A stretch of 21,931 nt of DNA from a virus, in the IMG/VR virus record IMGVR_UViG_3300023237_000087, positions 1-21,931 of that record. The stretch is one strand, 5' to 3'. The notes under the pieces are model-generated. The model worked only from the letters and a program-made list of their open reading frames with translations. It was not told where the DNA came from and made no database searches. Position numbers and translations under genes: made by a program. Position 1 is the first letter of the stretch, and every line of letters begins with the position of its first letter. Positions 1,582 through 9,955 of the stretch are shown here, piece after piece.

Positions 1582-4500
1582 CTAAGGGCAGAAAGTAAAT
1601 CCGGTATCAATAATAAATCCTGCGTTAGGCGTTTCTACTGTTGTTTCACCTTGTACCGTATAAAATTCTGATCCAACTCTAACTCTATCGTGAATAAAAA
1701 GCGTTATTTCGCTTGCCGTTTGTTGGCTTCTCCAATTTGTAGTTGTGTCAGAACATTTAGTCAATAAAATATATTTTATGCTATAATCAGGGCAAAAAGC
1801 CTGCCCGGTATTTGTTACTGTTCCAACATTATTTCCAGTTGTTGTTGTTCCGCTTACGGTATAAAAGATTGACCCAACTATAACTCTTTCGTTAATAGAA
1901 AGAGTTATTTGTGTAGTTTCTTGCTGTGTTCTCCAACCGGTGCTACTGTCTGAGCATTTTGTTAGGGAATAATAAACCGGCTCTGATGTTGGGCAACCCG
2001 TTTGGCCGGTATTGGTTACCGATCCAACACTACTTCCCGTTGTTGATGTTCCGGTTACTATATAGCTTTGAGCGCCAACCGTTACCCTATCGTTTGTATT
2101 AAGGCTTATTTGAGCGGTTGTTTGTTCGCTTCGCCAACCTCCCGTATTATCGCTACATCTTTCTAAAGTGTAGTAGAAAGGCGTTGGAGCAGAAGGGCAA
2201 CCAGTTTGTCCGGTATTTGTTACCGTTCCAACGCTTGTTCCGCTTGTTGTGGTTCCAGAAACCCTATAATCGTCACCAACGCCATTTTGAACCCTATCGT
2301 TATTAGATAGTGCAATTGCGCTTGTTTGTTGTTCTGTTCGCCAACCGGTGCTTCCATCTGAACATCTAATCAATGAATAATAGTTTAGCGTAGGAGTAGA
2401 AGGACAACCAGTTTGACCCGTTGTTGTAACATTTCCAACGCTTGTTCCCGTTGTTGTTACTCCAGTCACTATATAATTAACGGATCCAACCGCAACCCTA
2501 TCGTTGTTAGAAAGTGCAATTTGATTATTTTGTTGGGCGGTTCGCCAACCGGTGCTTCCATCTGAACATTTCTGTAAAGCATAAAATTCATTTGCCGGTG
2601 CGCTGCACTCGGTTACGCTTTGAACCTCACCCACTCCGCCACTAATAGTAAAGTAAAAAGCATTTACCATTAAATAGCTTCCATTTACTAAAGGACTTGT
2701 TGTGTTTGCCGTTGTATAAACAAGATCGCCAATTGTCGGATATGTTCCCGCTCCATCGTGATAGGCTGTAATGTCTGGCACTTGTTCGCATGGATTTGGA
2801 AACGCATTGTTAGACCTTTGAAAAGATGTCAATTCTACCGGAACCGGGCAACCAAATAAACCGGTATCGGTTATTGTTCCAACCGTTGAGCCAGTTACGC
2901 CTTGTCCTATAATAGTATAATTTACCAAACTTGAATCTTGAACCCTTCTGTTATTGCCAAGCGTTATCTCATTTGTGTATTGCGCCGATCTATACCCGGT
3001 ACTGCTATCGCTACATTTTTGTAATAAATAAAAGTTAAGACTAACAGTACATGTATCGTCTACATCAATTAAATTAGCATTAGGCGGTACGCTTGGCCTT
3101 GTGGTGGCGCAAAAGTCGTTGCCATCGCTATCAGCTTGTAGCGTAACCGTTTGAAAAGCCATGTCACAATCGTAATAAGAATAAGTGATTGAATTGTTTT
3201 GATCGTCATTTTGAACCCTATATGTCTTGCAATTAGTAATAAAAGGAATTGAGTAGCTTATTTGATTTGCCTTAAAATCAATAACCGCATCTATTAATTG
3301 GTTTCCTAAATGCGCCGAAAAATCATAAATATTTGATTTTACATTAAATTTTAAAGTGTCTATTACTAGCGGCAAAGTTTCAACTAAATTTACAAATTCA
3401 ATTTTTAACCTATTATGTAAAAAAATAGGTATTTCGTTGTTTAACTTCTTAATGCTTCCATCGTAGCGTTGTATTTTAACCCTATTGTCATTTATCCTTT
3501 GTTGTGCTGCCAAATCTTCTATGAAGCGATAGTTTATATCACTAGACCTTTTAAACATCGGCAAAACGCCTTTAAATTCATCACCAACCGGAGCCATGTA
3601 GCCCTTTAAGAATTGATTAAAAGTACTTCCCTGGTATATATCTTTGTATTCTAATTTATTAGTAAGTTTTTTTGTCGTTGTTTGAGTTGTTACCGTTTCT
3701 AAATCTTCGCCACTGAATATAAATTTTTCCGGCTCTGCCGTTGCGGTTTTGACATACAATAGATTTTTCCAATTAATTATGGAACCACCTAAATACATAG
3801 CTACATGAAAAGGCGAAGTTGTGGCGGGTTGCCCAAAATTTACAATAAAATTATGCGGCAAATATCCGCTTGTAACATCTGTAATATTATAGGCAATTTC
3901 TTTATTGTAAGTAAGCCATTCACCCCTTCCGGCGTAATTAAATTGATTTGTAAATTCGCTGCTTTGCCATTCGTTTGTTTGGTCATTAAAATAAAAATCT
4001 TCAAAATCGCTAGTTGGCTCACCTTCCGAATAACGTCTAAATGTTGCTAATAATTGATAAGGAACCGAATAAGAAGCTATTATTAATGGATAGCCTCCAT
4101 TTTCCATCTGAAGAACAAAAGAAAAATCAAAAACAGAATCCAAATAAGGCTTTGCCCCGGAATAAAATTCATTTTGTAAAACACGTACAAAAGCTGAATC
4201 CGTACCTATTATTTTAATTGATTGGCCCCTTATTCCGTTAGTAGAAAGTTCTACATTGTTAGGATCAATAAATGACCAATTTTCAAATCCATCTTCAAAA
4301 TTTCCGTTTGGAATAAAATTAATTTGCTCAGATAATAATACTTTGCTTTTTACCTCAATTACGCCGCCGCTAGTTTCTTTAATTAATGTTTCGCTTACGG
4401 GCAACCCTTCAGTTGGAATACTTATAAATGTATTTTTAATTATATTTTCAACGTAAACGCCTTCGCTATTGTACCTTCTATAATCTATATTTTCTAAAGA

Positions 4501-5334
4501 AGTTATGTCGGCATTATTAATAATGTAAAAATCTAAATCAGTTTGAAATATTCGGCAGTTAAAGCCGCTTAAAATTGAAAATAAAACCTCTGAACAATTG
4601 TATTTATAGGTGTTTTCATCTGTATAAGTACTTGTGTTAATTGTTAAATCTTCAAATACATTCGTAACCGCCGCCGCGTTTTCTTCTTTTAAATCTGTTT
4701 TAACATAAATATTGTACGTTAAACCCGTTTCTAATAGTACTTTATGTAAACACTCCCAAAGTGTCACCTCGTTGTTAGGTGTTAAAGGAAAATCAACTCC
4801 TTTAAGCAATCCCAAGCCATCAACCGCCTTAAAACTTACATTAAAGGGCGTTGAAGTAATGCTTTGTTCGTATGTATCTTGTATTAAATAGCCTTGCCAA
4901 AAGGCCCTATAATTGTCAGATGTAATACCTTGTTGCCAACCAACTGAATAATCGTTCCAATTTTCTGCAATTGTGTTCCAAACCTCGCTTTCATCGCCCC
5001 AATAGTCATTTGATAATTCCCAATTTTCTGTTTTATCTTCCCAAAAAGGAACGCGCGTTTCTGCATAATAAACTTTAACTAAAAATTCTCGTTCGTCAAA
5101 ATCGTAAAAATCTTCATAAACAACAAAATCCGTTTGAATTAAATTCACTTCGCAATTTGAAGCAATTAACGGGTCGTAAAAATCATTATTTTGCTCCCAT
5201 GACAAAACAACGGGGCTTCCGGTTCCAATTAAAGGAAAAACCGTATCTGAATAATCTTTTTTTAATATTTCTAAACGCCTTTTATTGCCTTGTGCATCTG
5301 AAAAATCTAAACGATATTTAACGCCGTATGCCAT
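1582..5334 (-). CDS. Tail tip or baseplate protein (1250 aa) with CBM-like domain and Cys repeats
   Basis: This 1250-aa protein directly follows the tape measure gene, the usual place of the distal-tail, tip or baseplate hub proteins in siphophages. The N-terminal part (about 1-330) is probably the structural part that attaches to the tail; it contains six tryptophans spaced exactly seven residues apart (W98 to W133). Residues about 340-531 begin NGNFEDGFENWSF and resemble the jelly-roll carbohydrate-binding modules found after such NGdFE...W starts. The C-terminal region from about residue 768 holds six repeats of roughly 62-68 aa (CSD..T.WR..Q......L...DRV, later a Gly/Thr-rich stretch, TG...CP), the first separated from the other five by about 85 aa. 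The repeats suggest an extended adhesive stalk. No hydrolase motif is evident. Function at the tail tip is inferred from position and domains. Confidence 0.75.
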   Translation of the reverse strand: MAYGVKYRLDFSDAQGNKRRLEILKKDYSDTVFPLIGTGSPVVLSWEQNNDFYDPLIASNCEVNLIQTDFVVYEDFYDFDEREFLVKVYYAETRVPFWEDKTENWELSNDYWGDESEVWNTIAENWNDYSVGWQQGITSDNYRAFWQGYLIQDTYEQSITSTPFNVSFKAVDGLGLLKGVDFPLTPNNEVTLWECLHKVLLETGLTYNIYVKTDLKEENAAAVTNVFEDLTINTSTYTDENTYKYNCSEVLFSILSGFNCRIFQTDLDFYIINNADITSLENIDYRRYNSEGVYVENIIKNTFISIPTEGLPVSETLIKETSGGVIEVKSKVLLSEQINFIPNGNFEDGFENWSFIDPNNVELSTNGIRGQSIKIIGTDSAFVRVLQNEFYSGAKPYLDSVFDFSFVLQMENGGYPLIIASYSVPYQLLATFRRYSEGEPTSDFEDFYFNDQTNEWQSSEFTNQFNYAGRGEWLTYNKEIAYNITDVTSGYLPHNFIVNFGQPATTSPFHVAMYLGGSIINWKNLLYVKTATAEPEKFIFSGEDLETVTTQTTTKKLTNKLEYKDIYQGSTFNQFLKGYMAPVGDEFKGVLPMFKRSSDINYRFIEDLAAQQRINDNRVKIQRYDGSIKKLNNEIPIFLHNRLKIEFVNLVETLPLVIDTLKFNVKSNIYDFSAHLGNQLIDAVIDFKANQISYSIPFITNCKTYRVQNDDQNNSITYSYYDCDMAFQTVTLQADSDGNDFCATTRPSVPPNANLIDVDDTCTVSLNFYLLQKCSDSSTGYRSAQYTNEITLGNNRRVQDSSLVNYTIIGQGVTGSTVGTITDTGLFGCPVPVELTSFQRSNNAFPNPCEQVPDITAYHDGAGTYPTIGDLVYTTANTTSPLVNGSYLMVNAFYFTISGGVGEVQSVTECSAPANEFYALQKCSDGSTGWRTAQQNNQIALSNNDRVAVGSVNYIVTGVTTTGTSVGNVTTTGQTGCPSTPTLNYYSLIRCSDGSTGWRTEQQTSAIALSNNDRVQNGVGDDYRVSGTTTSGTSVGTVTNTGQTGCPSAPTPFYYTLERCSDNTGGWRSEQTTAQISLNTNDRVTVGAQSYIVTGTSTTGSSVGSVTNTGQTGCPTSEPVYYSLTKCSDSSTGWRTQQETTQITLSINERVIVGSIFYTVSGTTTTGNNVGTVTNTGQAFCPDYSIKYILLTKCSDTTTNWRSQQTASEITLFIHDRVRVGSEFYTVQGETTVETPNAGFIIDTGFTFCP
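1585..3031 (-). repeat. Six coding repeats at the C-terminus of the tail tip protein
   Basis: Five consecutive units occupy about 1585-2587, with a period near 204 bp (68 codons). A sixth, more divergent unit lies at about 2846-3031, separated by a non-repeat stretch. Each unit starts near a CSD motif, has WR or YR some seven residues later, then DRV (RRV in the sixth unit, ERV in another), and ends with a TG...CP motif, giving two cysteines per unit. Inner units are most alike and the terminal unit at 1585-1770 is the most degenerate, as expected for tandem growth. Confidence 0.9.
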
Positions 5335-5337
5335 AAC

Positions 5338-7284
5338 TTACTTTATTCTCGATCTTGTTTTTTCTGCTTTTTGTAAAAGAACAACTAAATCTTGGCCGTT
5401 AATCCTAAATTCACCCGTTACGTTTACATTACTATTGCCGCCATTGCTACCTATAATATTCTTTAATTTATCCAAAGGCGCTATAACTTCAGGATTTGAT
5501 CTTGCACCGGGATATTCACCAACAAGACCCATTGTAGGCCCCGAAACAATACCGCCATCTGCAAAAGCTGAAAACCCTCCACTTTGAACCCTTGTAGCCA
5601 ATCCAGTTAATACGGTTCCTAAAGCTATCGCAGCTATTCCGGCAACCAATCCTACTCCGGGTATTGCAAAAGTTTTAGCCAAAGTAGAAGCCGCAACCGC
5701 CGCCGCTCCCATTTGTTGTAATAAACCTCCTAAAACGCCTAAAATTGCACCGGCTAAAGCCCCCATCATGTTTTTTCCTTCAACTATTGCACTAGCTAAT
5801 GCCATTCCCATAGTTTCTGCTATTTGCCCAAAATTTATTTCAAAAGCAACTTTTAAATTTTCTGTTCCTTTTTTTATCGTTTCAAAATACGATAGCGCTT
5901 GCGTTGTGCTTTCTTTAAGCGCGTTGGTGTCTATTCTTAATCCAAATTTATTGACATCAAAAAGACCCTTAAACAATTCATCGCGCTTGCGTTGTGCTTC
6001 CTCACCGTTTATTACTTCTACATTTTCAATTTCTAGTCTAGGCGTTATAACCGTTGCCGCTGATTTGCTTTTTTCAGGTGCATTTGGCATTAAAATAGTT
6101 TTGTAATCTAAGCCGTTTCCTCCCTTTTGACCAATAGCAGAGGCCGCTGCATTTGCCGTTGCCGCTGCATCTACAATCTTTTTGCTTTCTTCAATAGCCA
6201 ACCTTCCGGCAATAGACAAAGGAGCGGCTATACCGCTTAATGAGGTTTTTATTTGCTCCCAAGTGCTTAAACTAGGCGCAATTTTATTTGCAGCAACTAA
6301 AAAGGCAACACCCAAAGCCGTAACCGCTGCCGCTGCCGCAATAAATGGATTTGCCAATAAAGCGGTATTAACAGAAACAATTGCAACTCTCAAACCCGCC
6401 AAACCTTTAGCCATTAAACCAATAACAATAAGCAGAGGCCCAATGGCCGCAGCAATTCCAGCAATAACAACTATTGTTTTTTTTCCTTCTGGACTTAGAT
6501 TTTTGAAACCTTTTAAAATGCTGTTTAATTTAGTTACAACCTTAGTAAATAAAGGTAAAATTACCTCGCCAAATAACGCGCCCAATTCCTTCATGCTTTC
6601 TTGAAAAACTCGCATTTGGTTTGCGGCCCCATCTGAAGTTCTTGCAAAATCGCCAATTGCATTTTCAGATTTAGCCATTACAAAGGCGTAACGCAATTGT
6701 ACCTTCTCGGCTTGCGTAAAAGATTTTATGTTTTTTAATGTACCTTGTTCAAGTGCAAACTGCGCTAAATTGGCTTCGGTCATTACAATACCAAGGCGCT
6801 TTAAACTTTCGGTTTCGCCGGTAAACACGCCGTTAAGCGCGGTTGTAACTTCTTCAATGTTCATGTTCTTAAAAGAAGCTAAATCACCAGCCAATCCCAC
6901 TAAAGAAGTAGATAATTTTGCGGCTTCGGAAGTGCTAACGCCCATTGAAGTGGCCATATCGCCAAACAACGCTGCCATGTCTAGGGCCGTACCCTCGGCA
7001 ATACCAAAACTTTCTAAAGTTGTTTTAGCAAAATCTCGAACCTCATTAGAAGAACCTTTAAAAGCTACATCAACTTTATTAAGGCTTTCTTGAAAATCGG
7101 AAGCCATTTTAATTGCAGCGCCCCCGGCTAATATAATTGGAGCCGTTACAAAAAGGCTCATTGATTTGCCTATTTTAGTCGCTGAATCACCAAAAGATTT
7201 TAATTTCTTTTCAGCGGCGTTTAATGAAGCGCTTAATTTAGTAGCGTCACCGGTTAATATTACCTTTAATTCATTTGATGCCAT
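5338..7284 (-). CDS. Tail tape measure protein (648 aa)
   Basis: The start MASNELKVILTGDATKLSASLNAAEKKLKSFGDS is the characteristic N-terminus of phage tape measure proteins (minor tail protein, TP901 core type): a strand, then DxxxLxxxLxxAxxxLxxF. Ala-rich helices follow, with long hydrophobic segments near residues 270-335 and 490-570, expected for a protein that sets tail length and helps DNA pass the host membrane. It follows the chaperone genes and precedes the tip protein, the standard order. Using the general rule of about 0.15 nm of tail per residue, 648 aa would fit a tail near 100 nm; that is a rule-of-thumb inference. No lytic transglycosylase or peptidase motif is visible. A promoter-like box lies 19 bases upstream of the ATG. 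Confidence 0.92.
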   Translation of the reverse strand: MASNELKVILTGDATKLSASLNAAEKKLKSFGDSATKIGKSMSLFVTAPIILAGGAAIKMASDFQESLNKVDVAFKGSSNEVRDFAKTTLESFGIAEGTALDMAALFGDMATSMGVSTSEAAKLSTSLVGLAGDLASFKNMNIEEVTTALNGVFTGETESLKRLGIVMTEANLAQFALEQGTLKNIKSFTQAEKVQLRYAFVMAKSENAIGDFARTSDGAANQMRVFQESMKELGALFGEVILPLFTKVVTKLNSILKGFKNLSPEGKKTIVVIAGIAAAIGPLLIVIGLMAKGLAGLRVAIVSVNTALLANPFIAAAAAVTALGVAFLVAANKIAPSLSTWEQIKTSLSGIAAPLSIAGRLAIEESKKIVDAAATANAAASAIGQKGGNGLDYKTILMPNAPEKSKSAATVITPRLEIENVEVINGEEAQRKRDELFKGLFDVNKFGLRIDTNALKESTTQALSYFETIKKGTENLKVAFEINFGQIAETMGMALASAIVEGKNMMGALAGAILGVLGGLLQQMGAAAVAASTLAKTFAIPGVGLVAGIAAIALGTVLTGLATRVQSGGFSAFADGGIVSGPTMGLVGEYPGARSNPEVIAPLDKLKNIIGSNGGNSNVNVTGEFRINGQDLVVLLQKAEKTRSRIK

Positions 7285-7326: not shown

Positions 7327-8033
7327 TTAAAAAAGCAGCTTATTCACTTTAGCCTCAAAGGCTTCTTTTTGTTCTTTTGTGCTTTGCGGTTCTTTGTTTG
7401 TTTTGCTTATTGAATCTTGCGGCAAAGAAAATAACTGATCGGGCCGCTTTGCATCGCCTTTTTTAGTTATGTTGGTGTTGTGAATCCACGATGCTAAATA
7501 CCGCGTCATTTCCCAATTTAAATTTGTTTTTATGATATAACTTTCGCCCAACAAAGCGTTTTCTTTCCATGTTTGGCCCCAAAATTTATGAGGTTCTATT
7601 CCGGCTTGTCCAATATAGAAATCCAATAAGGTGTTCCAATCAATTGGGCTTATGCTTTTTTTGGTTTTACCGCCCCTTTTGGATCCGCACCCCTTAAACC
7701 GCCGTTTAAATCATTACCTAAAATACGGCTTTGAGCAAGCGCGTTTGTAATATTTGTAAAATCTTCGGTTGTTAATTCATCACACCAAGCGCCCACTTTA
7801 TAGACATTGTAATCAATTGAATTTCCTTCTTCTTGGTCATAAGCTAAAATTCCGGCGTACACTAAGGCTCTTAATGTATTGAAATTCATTTCGGCGCTAA
7901 ATACTTTGTCGATTTGGCCTATTGAAATGCCTAATTCGTCTGTAAAAGCTGCCCAAAAATTCATTGAAAAGTGCATTGTTCTTTGTTTGCCGCCTAATTT
8001 AATAGCGAAAAACCCCCTTTGTTTGTTTACCAT
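7327..8033 (-). CDS. Tail assembly chaperone, frameshifted long form (G-T type, 235 aa)
   Basis: The long product joins the first 126 residues of the upstream chaperone (frame starting at 8033) to a second frame that ends at 7327, through a -1 shift on A AAA AAA at 7656-7662. After the slip, translation enters the second frame as SISPIDWNTLLDFYIGQAG and continues for 109 residues, total 235 aa. The second frame has no ATG near its start; its only candidate is a TTG at 7626, and it is open far upstream of the junction, which argues for synthesis by frameshift rather than as a separate gene. G and G-T proteins of siphophages recruit tail tube subunits around the tape measure, and the place between tube and tape measure genes fits exactly. 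Confidence 0.85.
7650..8033 (-). CDS. Tail assembly chaperone, short form (G type, 127 aa)
   Basis: This 127-aa protein (MVNKQRGFFAIKLGG...) lies between the tail tube and tape measure genes, the canonical place of the gpG-like chaperone. Residues 1-40 form strands (FFAIKLGGKQRTMHFSMNFWAAF), followed by helices, as in TAC family proteins. It ends GAVKPKKA, and the last codons contain the slippery A7 run; normal decoding stops at TAA two codons later. The protein would coat the tape measure during tail assembly and be absent from the virion. It starts downstream of the terminator behind the tail tube gene, so its level should be far lower than that of the tube protein. Confidence 0.82.
   Translation of the reverse strand: MVNKQRGFFAIKLGGKQRTMHFSMNFWAAFTDELGISIGQIDKVFSAEMNFNTLRALVYAGILAYDQEEGNSIDYNVYKVGAWCDELTTEDFTNITNALAQSRILGNDLNGGLRGADPKGAVKPKKA
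7656..7662 (-). promoter_or_regulatory. Programmed -1 frameshift site A AAA AAA
   Basis: In the frame of the short chaperone the codons read CCA AAA AAA GCA TAA, so the heptamer A AAA AAA fits the X XXY YYZ rule precisely and is followed by G. A -1 slip here yields AGC ATA AGC and enters the open second frame. The stop codon sits just two codons after the site. Confidence 0.88.
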
Positions 8034-8108: not shown

Positions 8109-8519
8109 TTATACATTTGCAGATTTTACAATCGCGCCGGTAAGAGTTATCGAACCCGAATAAGAAACGGTGCTTTCCATTTCTGCGCTTTGTTCTACTG
8201 AAGAAATAAAACCTTCAGCGGTATAAATAGCATCACCAGTTGTCGAAGTTCCGAAAACACACGTTACAACGGTTCTGTTTAGAATATAGTCAATTAATTC
8301 AATTGCGCTTGCTGCATCTGAATAATCAACAAGCCCCTCAAAAGAAATCTCGCCGCTTCTAAGTCCTGAAATAACTTCAGAAAATCCATTGCTGTCTTTT
8401 GTGGTTGCATCTGGTAAATCGTGCGAAATTGTAAGGGAACATGAAGTTGTATGTCCTATTGTGTCACCTTCTACTTTCAAAAGTAAGTTGGTTCCATTAA
8501 ATACTCCGGTAGTAGCCAT
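8109..8519 (-). CDS. Major tail tube protein (136 aa)
   Basis: The 136-aa protein starts MATTGVFNGTNLLLKVEGDTIGHTTSCSLTISHD and is made of alternating strands. The features ATTKDSNGFSEVISGLRSGEISFEGLVDY (about residues 38-66) and ...SYSGSITLTGAI near the end are typical of TP901-1 type major tail proteins (contrast T/K-D-S with W or F strands around a Gly-Leu turn). It polymerises as hexameric rings into the tube around the tape measure. It is flanked by a promoter-like box 27 bases upstream and a terminator downstream, consistent with being the most abundant tail protein. The gene is separated from the other connector genes by the lysis and fibre cassette. Confidence 0.88.
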   Translation of the reverse strand: MATTGVFNGTNLLLKVEGDTIGHTTSCSLTISHDLPDATTKDSNGFSEVISGLRSGEISFEGLVDYSDAASAIELIDYILNRTVVTCVFGTSTTGDAIYTAEGFISSVEQSAEMESTVSYSGSITLTGAIVKSANV

Positions 8520-9010: not shown

Positions 9011-9955
9011 TTATGCGGTATATGTTCCGCTTGAGTTATATGTTAAAATCGTGTCTGTTCCGTCTGTTGTAACCGTAGGGCTTCCAGTCGTGGTGTTTGA
9101 GTAGTTTGCCGTTGGCATTCTTAGTATTACTACTCCAGATCCACCCGCTCCACTGTTTTTACCATCCCCACTACCTCCGCCGCCAGATCCGGTGTTTACA
9201 GAGGCATTAGTCCCATTTGTTGTTGATAAACCGCCATTACCGCCACCCCCAGAGCCCCCGGCCCCAGCAGTGTTTCCTCCAATTCCAGTACCTGCTGTAC
9301 CTCCCCCGCCTCCGGCTCTAGTAATTGAAGATCCTGTTATTGCCGAAGCTAATCCATTTCCGCCTGCGCCTCCAGATGCAGTAGCAGTAATTCCGTCCGC
9401 GCTTGCGCCACCACCACCTGCGCCAGAATAAGGATGAGCGGTCATTGATGTTCCTCCTCCGGCATATCCTTGACCAGAAGTTCCAGATACGGGGCCTCTT
9501 GTTCCTGTGTTAGTAGTTCCTTGCCCTCCCGCACTACCCCCGGAAACAGCAAGATTAGAATTTGATCCTCCTCCTCCTCCTCCTATAGATGTTATTGTGC
9601 TAAAAACTGAATCAGCCCCATTCTCGCCTACATATTGGTATTGGCTAGGGTATTGAATAATAGCCCCTCCCCCGCCTATGGTTACTGTATAAGAAACCCC
9701 GGTACTTAAAGTTAAAGAGGTTTCACTTGCTCCGCCACCCCCAGAGGTTTCAGAATTATATGAATTTCTATATCCACCCGCTCCTCCTCCTCCTCCGTTA
9801 CTACCTCCGGAAGCGCCGCCAGCAACAACTAAAAAGTCAATAGAGTAGTCTGTTATAATAGGAAATATTAAATTTGCCCCAAAGTAAACAGCAGATAATT
9901 CAGTAGCCCCTTTATAGACTTTTGATAGTTGCGTTGTGTTTTTATAAATTCCCAT
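9011..9955 (-). CDS. Glycine-rich tail fibre or adhesin protein (314 aa)
   Basis: The N-terminus (MGIYKNTTQLSKVYKGATELSAVYFGANLIFP) consists of short K/AVYxGxxxL repeats found at the attachment end of phage fibres. Residues about 40-280 are dominated by Gly runs (GGGGGAGGY, IGGGGGGSN, AGGSGGGGNGG), starting FLVVAGGASGG and ending GGSGVVILRM. This pattern is typical of aquatic phage fibre proteins and of adhesins whose Gly-rich part folds as a bundle of polyglycine II helices, as in the gp38-type adhesin of phage S16. The last 30 residues are Thr/Ser-rich and end ILTYNSSGTYTA. Likely role: receptor binding at the cell surface, with loops between Gly helices as variable recognition sites. Base composition is markedly richer in GC than in neighbours, mostly because of Gly codons. 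Confidence 0.75.
   Translation of the reverse strand: MGIYKNTTQLSKVYKGATELSAVYFGANLIFPIITDYSIDFLVVAGGASGGSNGGGGGAGGYRNSYNSETSGGGGASETSLTLSTGVSYTVTIGGGGAIIQYPSQYQYVGENGADSVFSTITSIGGGGGGSNSNLAVSGGSAGGQGTTNTGTRGPVSGTSGQGYAGGGTSMTAHPYSGAGGGGASADGITATASGGAGGNGLASAITGSSITRAGGGGGTAGTGIGGNTAGAGGSGGGGNGGLSTTNGTNASVNTGSGGGGSGDGKNSGAGGSGVVILRMPTANYSNTTTGSPTVTTDGTDTILTYNSSGTYTA

Follow-up and report, generated by a model that had tools for sequence, protein, structure and literature searches.

We examined if two overlapping open frames on the minus strand of a marine phage genome are translated as one fused protein through a programmed -1 ribosomal frameshift, as had been proposed in a preliminary description. 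The window, meaning the whole stretch of DNA that was analysed, is 21,931 nucleotides long (positions 1 to 21,931 of IMG/VR record IMGVR_UViG_3300023237_000087) with a GC content of 35.5%. The ATG at 8033 starts a 127-codon ORF (zero frame; 7650..8033, minus strand), whose 3' end reads GTA AAA CCA AAA AAA GCA TAA, with the TAA stop at 7652-7650. One codon 5' of this stop, at 7662-7656 on the minus strand, the heptamer A AAA AAA fits the X XXY YYZ phase. The -1 frame stays open between 7710 and 7327; read from the slip (7327..7656, minus strand) it supplies 109 codons plus a stop, giving a predicted fusion of 126+109 = 235 aa with the junction VKPKK-SISPIDWN. Re-reading of the minus strand agreed with the preliminary description in the sequence, coordinates and phase of the heptamer, in the 109 open codons to 7327, and in the 127-aa and 235-aa products as predicted ORF lengths.

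The pair is flanked by tail genes on the same strand. Upstream, at 8109..8519 (minus), lies the major tail (tube) protein gene, in the V position of the lambda order (Phage_tail_2 PF06199, E 9e-12; PHROG 1407), and downstream, at 5338..7284 (minus), the tail length tape measure gene, in the H position (PHROG 1535, E 4e-42). A heptamer A AAA AAA or A AAA AAG is found in phase 14 times among 6391 codons elsewhere in this AT-rich window, so the window site taken alone is weak evidence; by arithmetic from these counts, one such heptamer would fall within the 19-codon overlap about 4% of the time. One copy could be chance, and it is the relatives that decide the matter.

Relatives were collected from IMG/VR by scanning with each half and with a second-half profile, which gave more than 150 loci; the family numbers at least 579 matches in the profile scan. 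The tube protein gene lay upstream of the pair in 100/100 relatives with room for it, and a tape measure match lay downstream in 102 of 105, about one third of these matches covering only the later part of the protein, 1-2.3 kb on. The second half was in the -1 phase in all 161 loci that contain both halves. Among 108 distinct loci, 102 carried A AAA AAA, A AAA AAG or G GGA AAG/A in phase within the overlap, four carried C CCA AAG and one G GGA AAC, so that an X_XXY_YYZ heptamer of a known kind was found in 107. The remaining locus, L122, kept both frames and the -1 phase without a canonical heptamer (GAA GCA AAG TAG), possibly representing an A_AAG-type site or an assembly error. Loss of the slippery run from relatives that keep both frames had been named beforehand as the result that would tell against a frameshift; this loss is seen literally for the A7 run, but not in substance, with A AAA AAG or G GGA AAG standing at the junction in most relatives. 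On the tree the heptamer class switched at least four times, with lambda's G GGA AAG among the outcomes, which argues that slipperiness is conserved, rather than an A run or the amino acids. In the G-class the base preceding GGA AAR was G in 21/21 representatives, compared with G at 15% of third positions overall. Heptamer conservation among the relatives is far beyond chance. The same counts bear on the idea that an assembly or sequencing indel has split one gene: the A7 homopolymer at the break is where such an error might fall, but 161 loci drawn from many assemblies show an identical -1 break, at differing sequences, which already refutes it, and we give this reading practically no weight. 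A second in-phase heptamer, T TTA AAC, 17 codons 5' of the stop, was rejected as a candidate; the -1 frame is closed there in L009, a member of the window clade, and the heptamer is absent outside that clade.

The second frame could instead be a separate gene, started at a TTG or by reinitiation after the zero-frame stop. The TTG at 7626, 10 codons beyond the slip, is the only nearby start in the window's -1 frame, with no ATG or GTG before it (the preliminary description likewise noted the TTG and the lack of a near ATG), and the second ORF of Cellulophaga phage phi10:1 has ATG ATG. However, 82 of the 108 distinct relatives have no ATG, GTG or TTG close to the second-frame start (ATG is found there in five loci), starting at the TTG would remove the conserved W7, and a separate gene has no need for the heptamer to be kept. 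We consider independent initiation very improbable. Within the window clade, codons of the -1 frame with single changes gave 292 synonymous to 93 non-synonymous differences, whereas the same codons read in the other two frames gave 78:287 and 12:359, these figures being pair counts and not independent events; the differences cluster at third codon positions of the -1 frame. The second frame is under protein-coding selection, and most relatives give it no start of its own. The corrected gene call is one that automatic annotation would miss, across a large family of uncultivated phages.

The 127-aa product is predicted to be a tail assembly chaperone, G-like in position. It matches PHROG 2115 'tail protein' (E 3e-9), as did 10/10 family members tested, and the BFVD matches of its AlphaFold model (pLDDT 78.7) include phage tail assembly chaperones. 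In a PDB search with this model the HK97-type chaperone 2OB9 came first but weakly (Z 3.2, rmsd 5.1 over 83 residues), scoring no higher than unrelated entries. The 109-codon half, predicted to be the T-like C-terminal part of the fusion, had no useful PDB match. Phage_TAC_6 (PF09550) scored 12.5 bits against it, below the curated Pfam cut-off of 23.4, and reached E<0.1 in the second halves of 19/54 members (best 0.0031, weak); Phage_tail_T matches were also weak (second halves of 4/54 members, best E 0.0058). Both halves thus resemble the GTA chaperones (TAC_11 gp10 and TAC_6/TIGR02216) only weakly.

The comparison with lambda (J02459) is closest in arrangement. Both have the order tube protein, G, T and tape measure (V-G-T-H), with the -1 shift site close to where G stops; lambda G closes with GCG GGA AAG TGT, and the G GGA AAG of the window's relatives is lambda's heptamer (G_GGA_AAG; PMC7618472) in the same place. 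The window differs in its heptamer, A AAA AAA, and its relatives in having a conserved 3' stem. Lambda G/T homology was not detected (with single lambda sequences, hhalign gave a probability of about 0), so the term lambda-like, used for the layout in the preliminary description, applies to gene arrangement and mechanism, but not to close kinship. Other known sites are of the same kinds: E. coli ribosomes are prone to shift on G_GGA_AAG, C_CCA_AAG and A_AAA_AAG, and the haloarchaeal virus HCTV-1 uses G_GGA_AAC (PMC5009743).

Downstream of the heptamer, the 85 nt on its 3' side folded better than shuffled copies (mean z -1.88 for 33 representatives; z -0.67 for the window's own fold). G-class loci have a stem that begins 5-6 nt past the heptamer, in the forms GCCAAC/GUUGGC, GCCGAC/GUCGGC, CCCAAC/GUUGGG and CCCAGC/GCUGGG. 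Over 23 ungapped sequences 92% of the cells pair, and the covariation score was 0.183, compared with 0.114 for shuffled copies and no more than 0.06 for slid positions of the stem. Three independent branches show a GC to CG flip of the outer pair, each time with both bases changed, three flips being too few for significance in a sign test. MAFFT aligned the two A-class clades in the wrong codon register, and stem pair counts were therefore made ungapped. In the window's sister clade the stem is GCTTCC/GGAAGC, and in the window clade GCCC/GGGC occupies this register, so that three pairs differ on both sides with pairing retained (one clade split); RNAalifold recovers the stem in both clades. 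In window coordinates the proposed 5' arm GCCC is at 7646..7649 (minus), 6 nt past the heptamer, and the 3' arm GGGC at 7576..7579 (minus). A stem 5-6 nt 3' of the heptamer, with compensatory changes, is well supported in most relatives; the preliminary description makes no mention of it. Its pairing probability was 0.85-0.98 in L009 and about 0.08 in the window alone, so the window stem was treated as possible and unproven, and the case for it in the window itself is weak. We put at even odds the fuller proposal that in this clade the G/GT shift is set by the heptamer plus a compensating 3' RNA stem, in which one heptamer class gives way to another, paired bases in the stem flip or change partner, the distance between the two stays at 5-6 nt, and a reduced stem, in the register of the sister clade, persists in the window clade. 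The conserved downstream stem and the heptamer exchange are the fresh elements here; no description of them for these phages was found in open-licence papers. The Shine-Dalgarno-like AAAGGGG at 7673..7679 (minus), 10 nt 5' of the heptamer, was noted from the sequence and may be a possible 5' stimulator, to be taken as a lead only; a like element (AAAGGAG) is present in L012, but it is absent in most relatives and not conserved in sister clades.

The stem also bears on RNA polymerase slippage, by which some mRNAs would gain one base on the A run and the fusion would be read with no ribosome slip. A7 is a homopolymer, Flavobacterium phage 11b and Cellulophaga phages carry runs of A8-A10 at this junction, and phi17:1 and phi18:1 do not share one frame relation. 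On the other side, G GGA AAG, which is not a homopolymer, stands in most relatives, 0/161 loci drift from -1, and an RNA stem at ribosomal spacing is conserved. Since most relatives lack the homopolymer, transcriptional slippage is disfavoured, and we consider it improbable for this family, though it may be relevant in the Cellulophaga phages.

A lambda-type G/GT programmed -1 ribosomal frameshift, in a siphovirus of flavobacterial type, is the reading that best accounts for these data, and we give it a probability of about 0.94; counted against it were L122 without a heptamer, the five ATG loci, the undetected lambda G/T similarity and the weak window stem. The mechanism is already known from phage lambda, and the relatives show that the site is real and maintained by selection. 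Most ribosomes would read the zero frame and release the 127-aa chaperone at the TAA; a minority would slip back by one nucleotide at A AAA AAA, enter the -1 frame and complete the 235-aa fusion, and the RNA stem 5-6 nt downstream would raise the efficiency of slippage. The slippage itself, its efficiency and the roles of the two proteins are what we infer. In lambda, where G and GT are made at about 30:1, the binding partner of G is the tape measure protein and that of T is the tail tube protein (PMC5009743), and frameshifting in an HK97-like chaperone cluster was measured at 6-7% (PMC3711429). By analogy with lambda, the G part would bind the tape measure protein and the T part would recruit the tail tube protein, with tail assembly set by the ratio between these two products. 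Within the family, one protein pair carries a range of natural heptamers and stems across which frameshift efficiency could be compared.

Neither half, nor the tail tube protein, gave a tblastn match to named phages, and named relatives were reached instead via structure and the portal protein. The nearest by portal protein were the Cellulophaga Helsingorvirus phages and Flavobacterium phage 11b, and a flavobacterial host is therefore likely. Two loci in MAGs titled Woesearchaeota and Gammaproteobacteria (L101 and L102) are probably misbinned phage contigs and were for that reason left out of the host inference. Cellulophaga phi18:1, phi12:1 and phi17:1 and phage 11b have two small ORFs that overlap at an A9-A10 run, and have portal proteins and chaperone folds related to those of the window; in the Cellulophaga phages the pair lies between a tail protein and the tape measure, as in the window. 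They differ from our reading of the window in that the pair is annotated as separate hypothetical proteins. The same gene pair is found in phi18:1 (L167:30231-30942) and phi12:1 (L168:1604-2315) with an A9 junction and a +1/-2 relation as deposited, and in phi17:1 (L171:1741-2453) with an A10 junction and a -1 relation; this discrepancy could represent homopolymer error or transcriptional slippage. Phage phi10:1 (L169:9529-10228) has an unannotated chaperone ORF (9529-9903) that overlaps gp086, which begins ATG ATG, with an A8 run and a +1/-2 relation as deposited. In phage 11b (L170:9865-10529), gp38 and gp39 overlap at an in-phase A AAA AAA within an A9 run, in the -1 relation; the annotation begins gp39 at an internal ATG and so probably misses the N-terminal part of the protein. 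Elsewhere in the window, 1582-5334 encodes a 1250-aa protein, probably a tail or receptor-binding protein, with several 'SSTGWRT...GQTGCP' repeat units close to its C-terminus.
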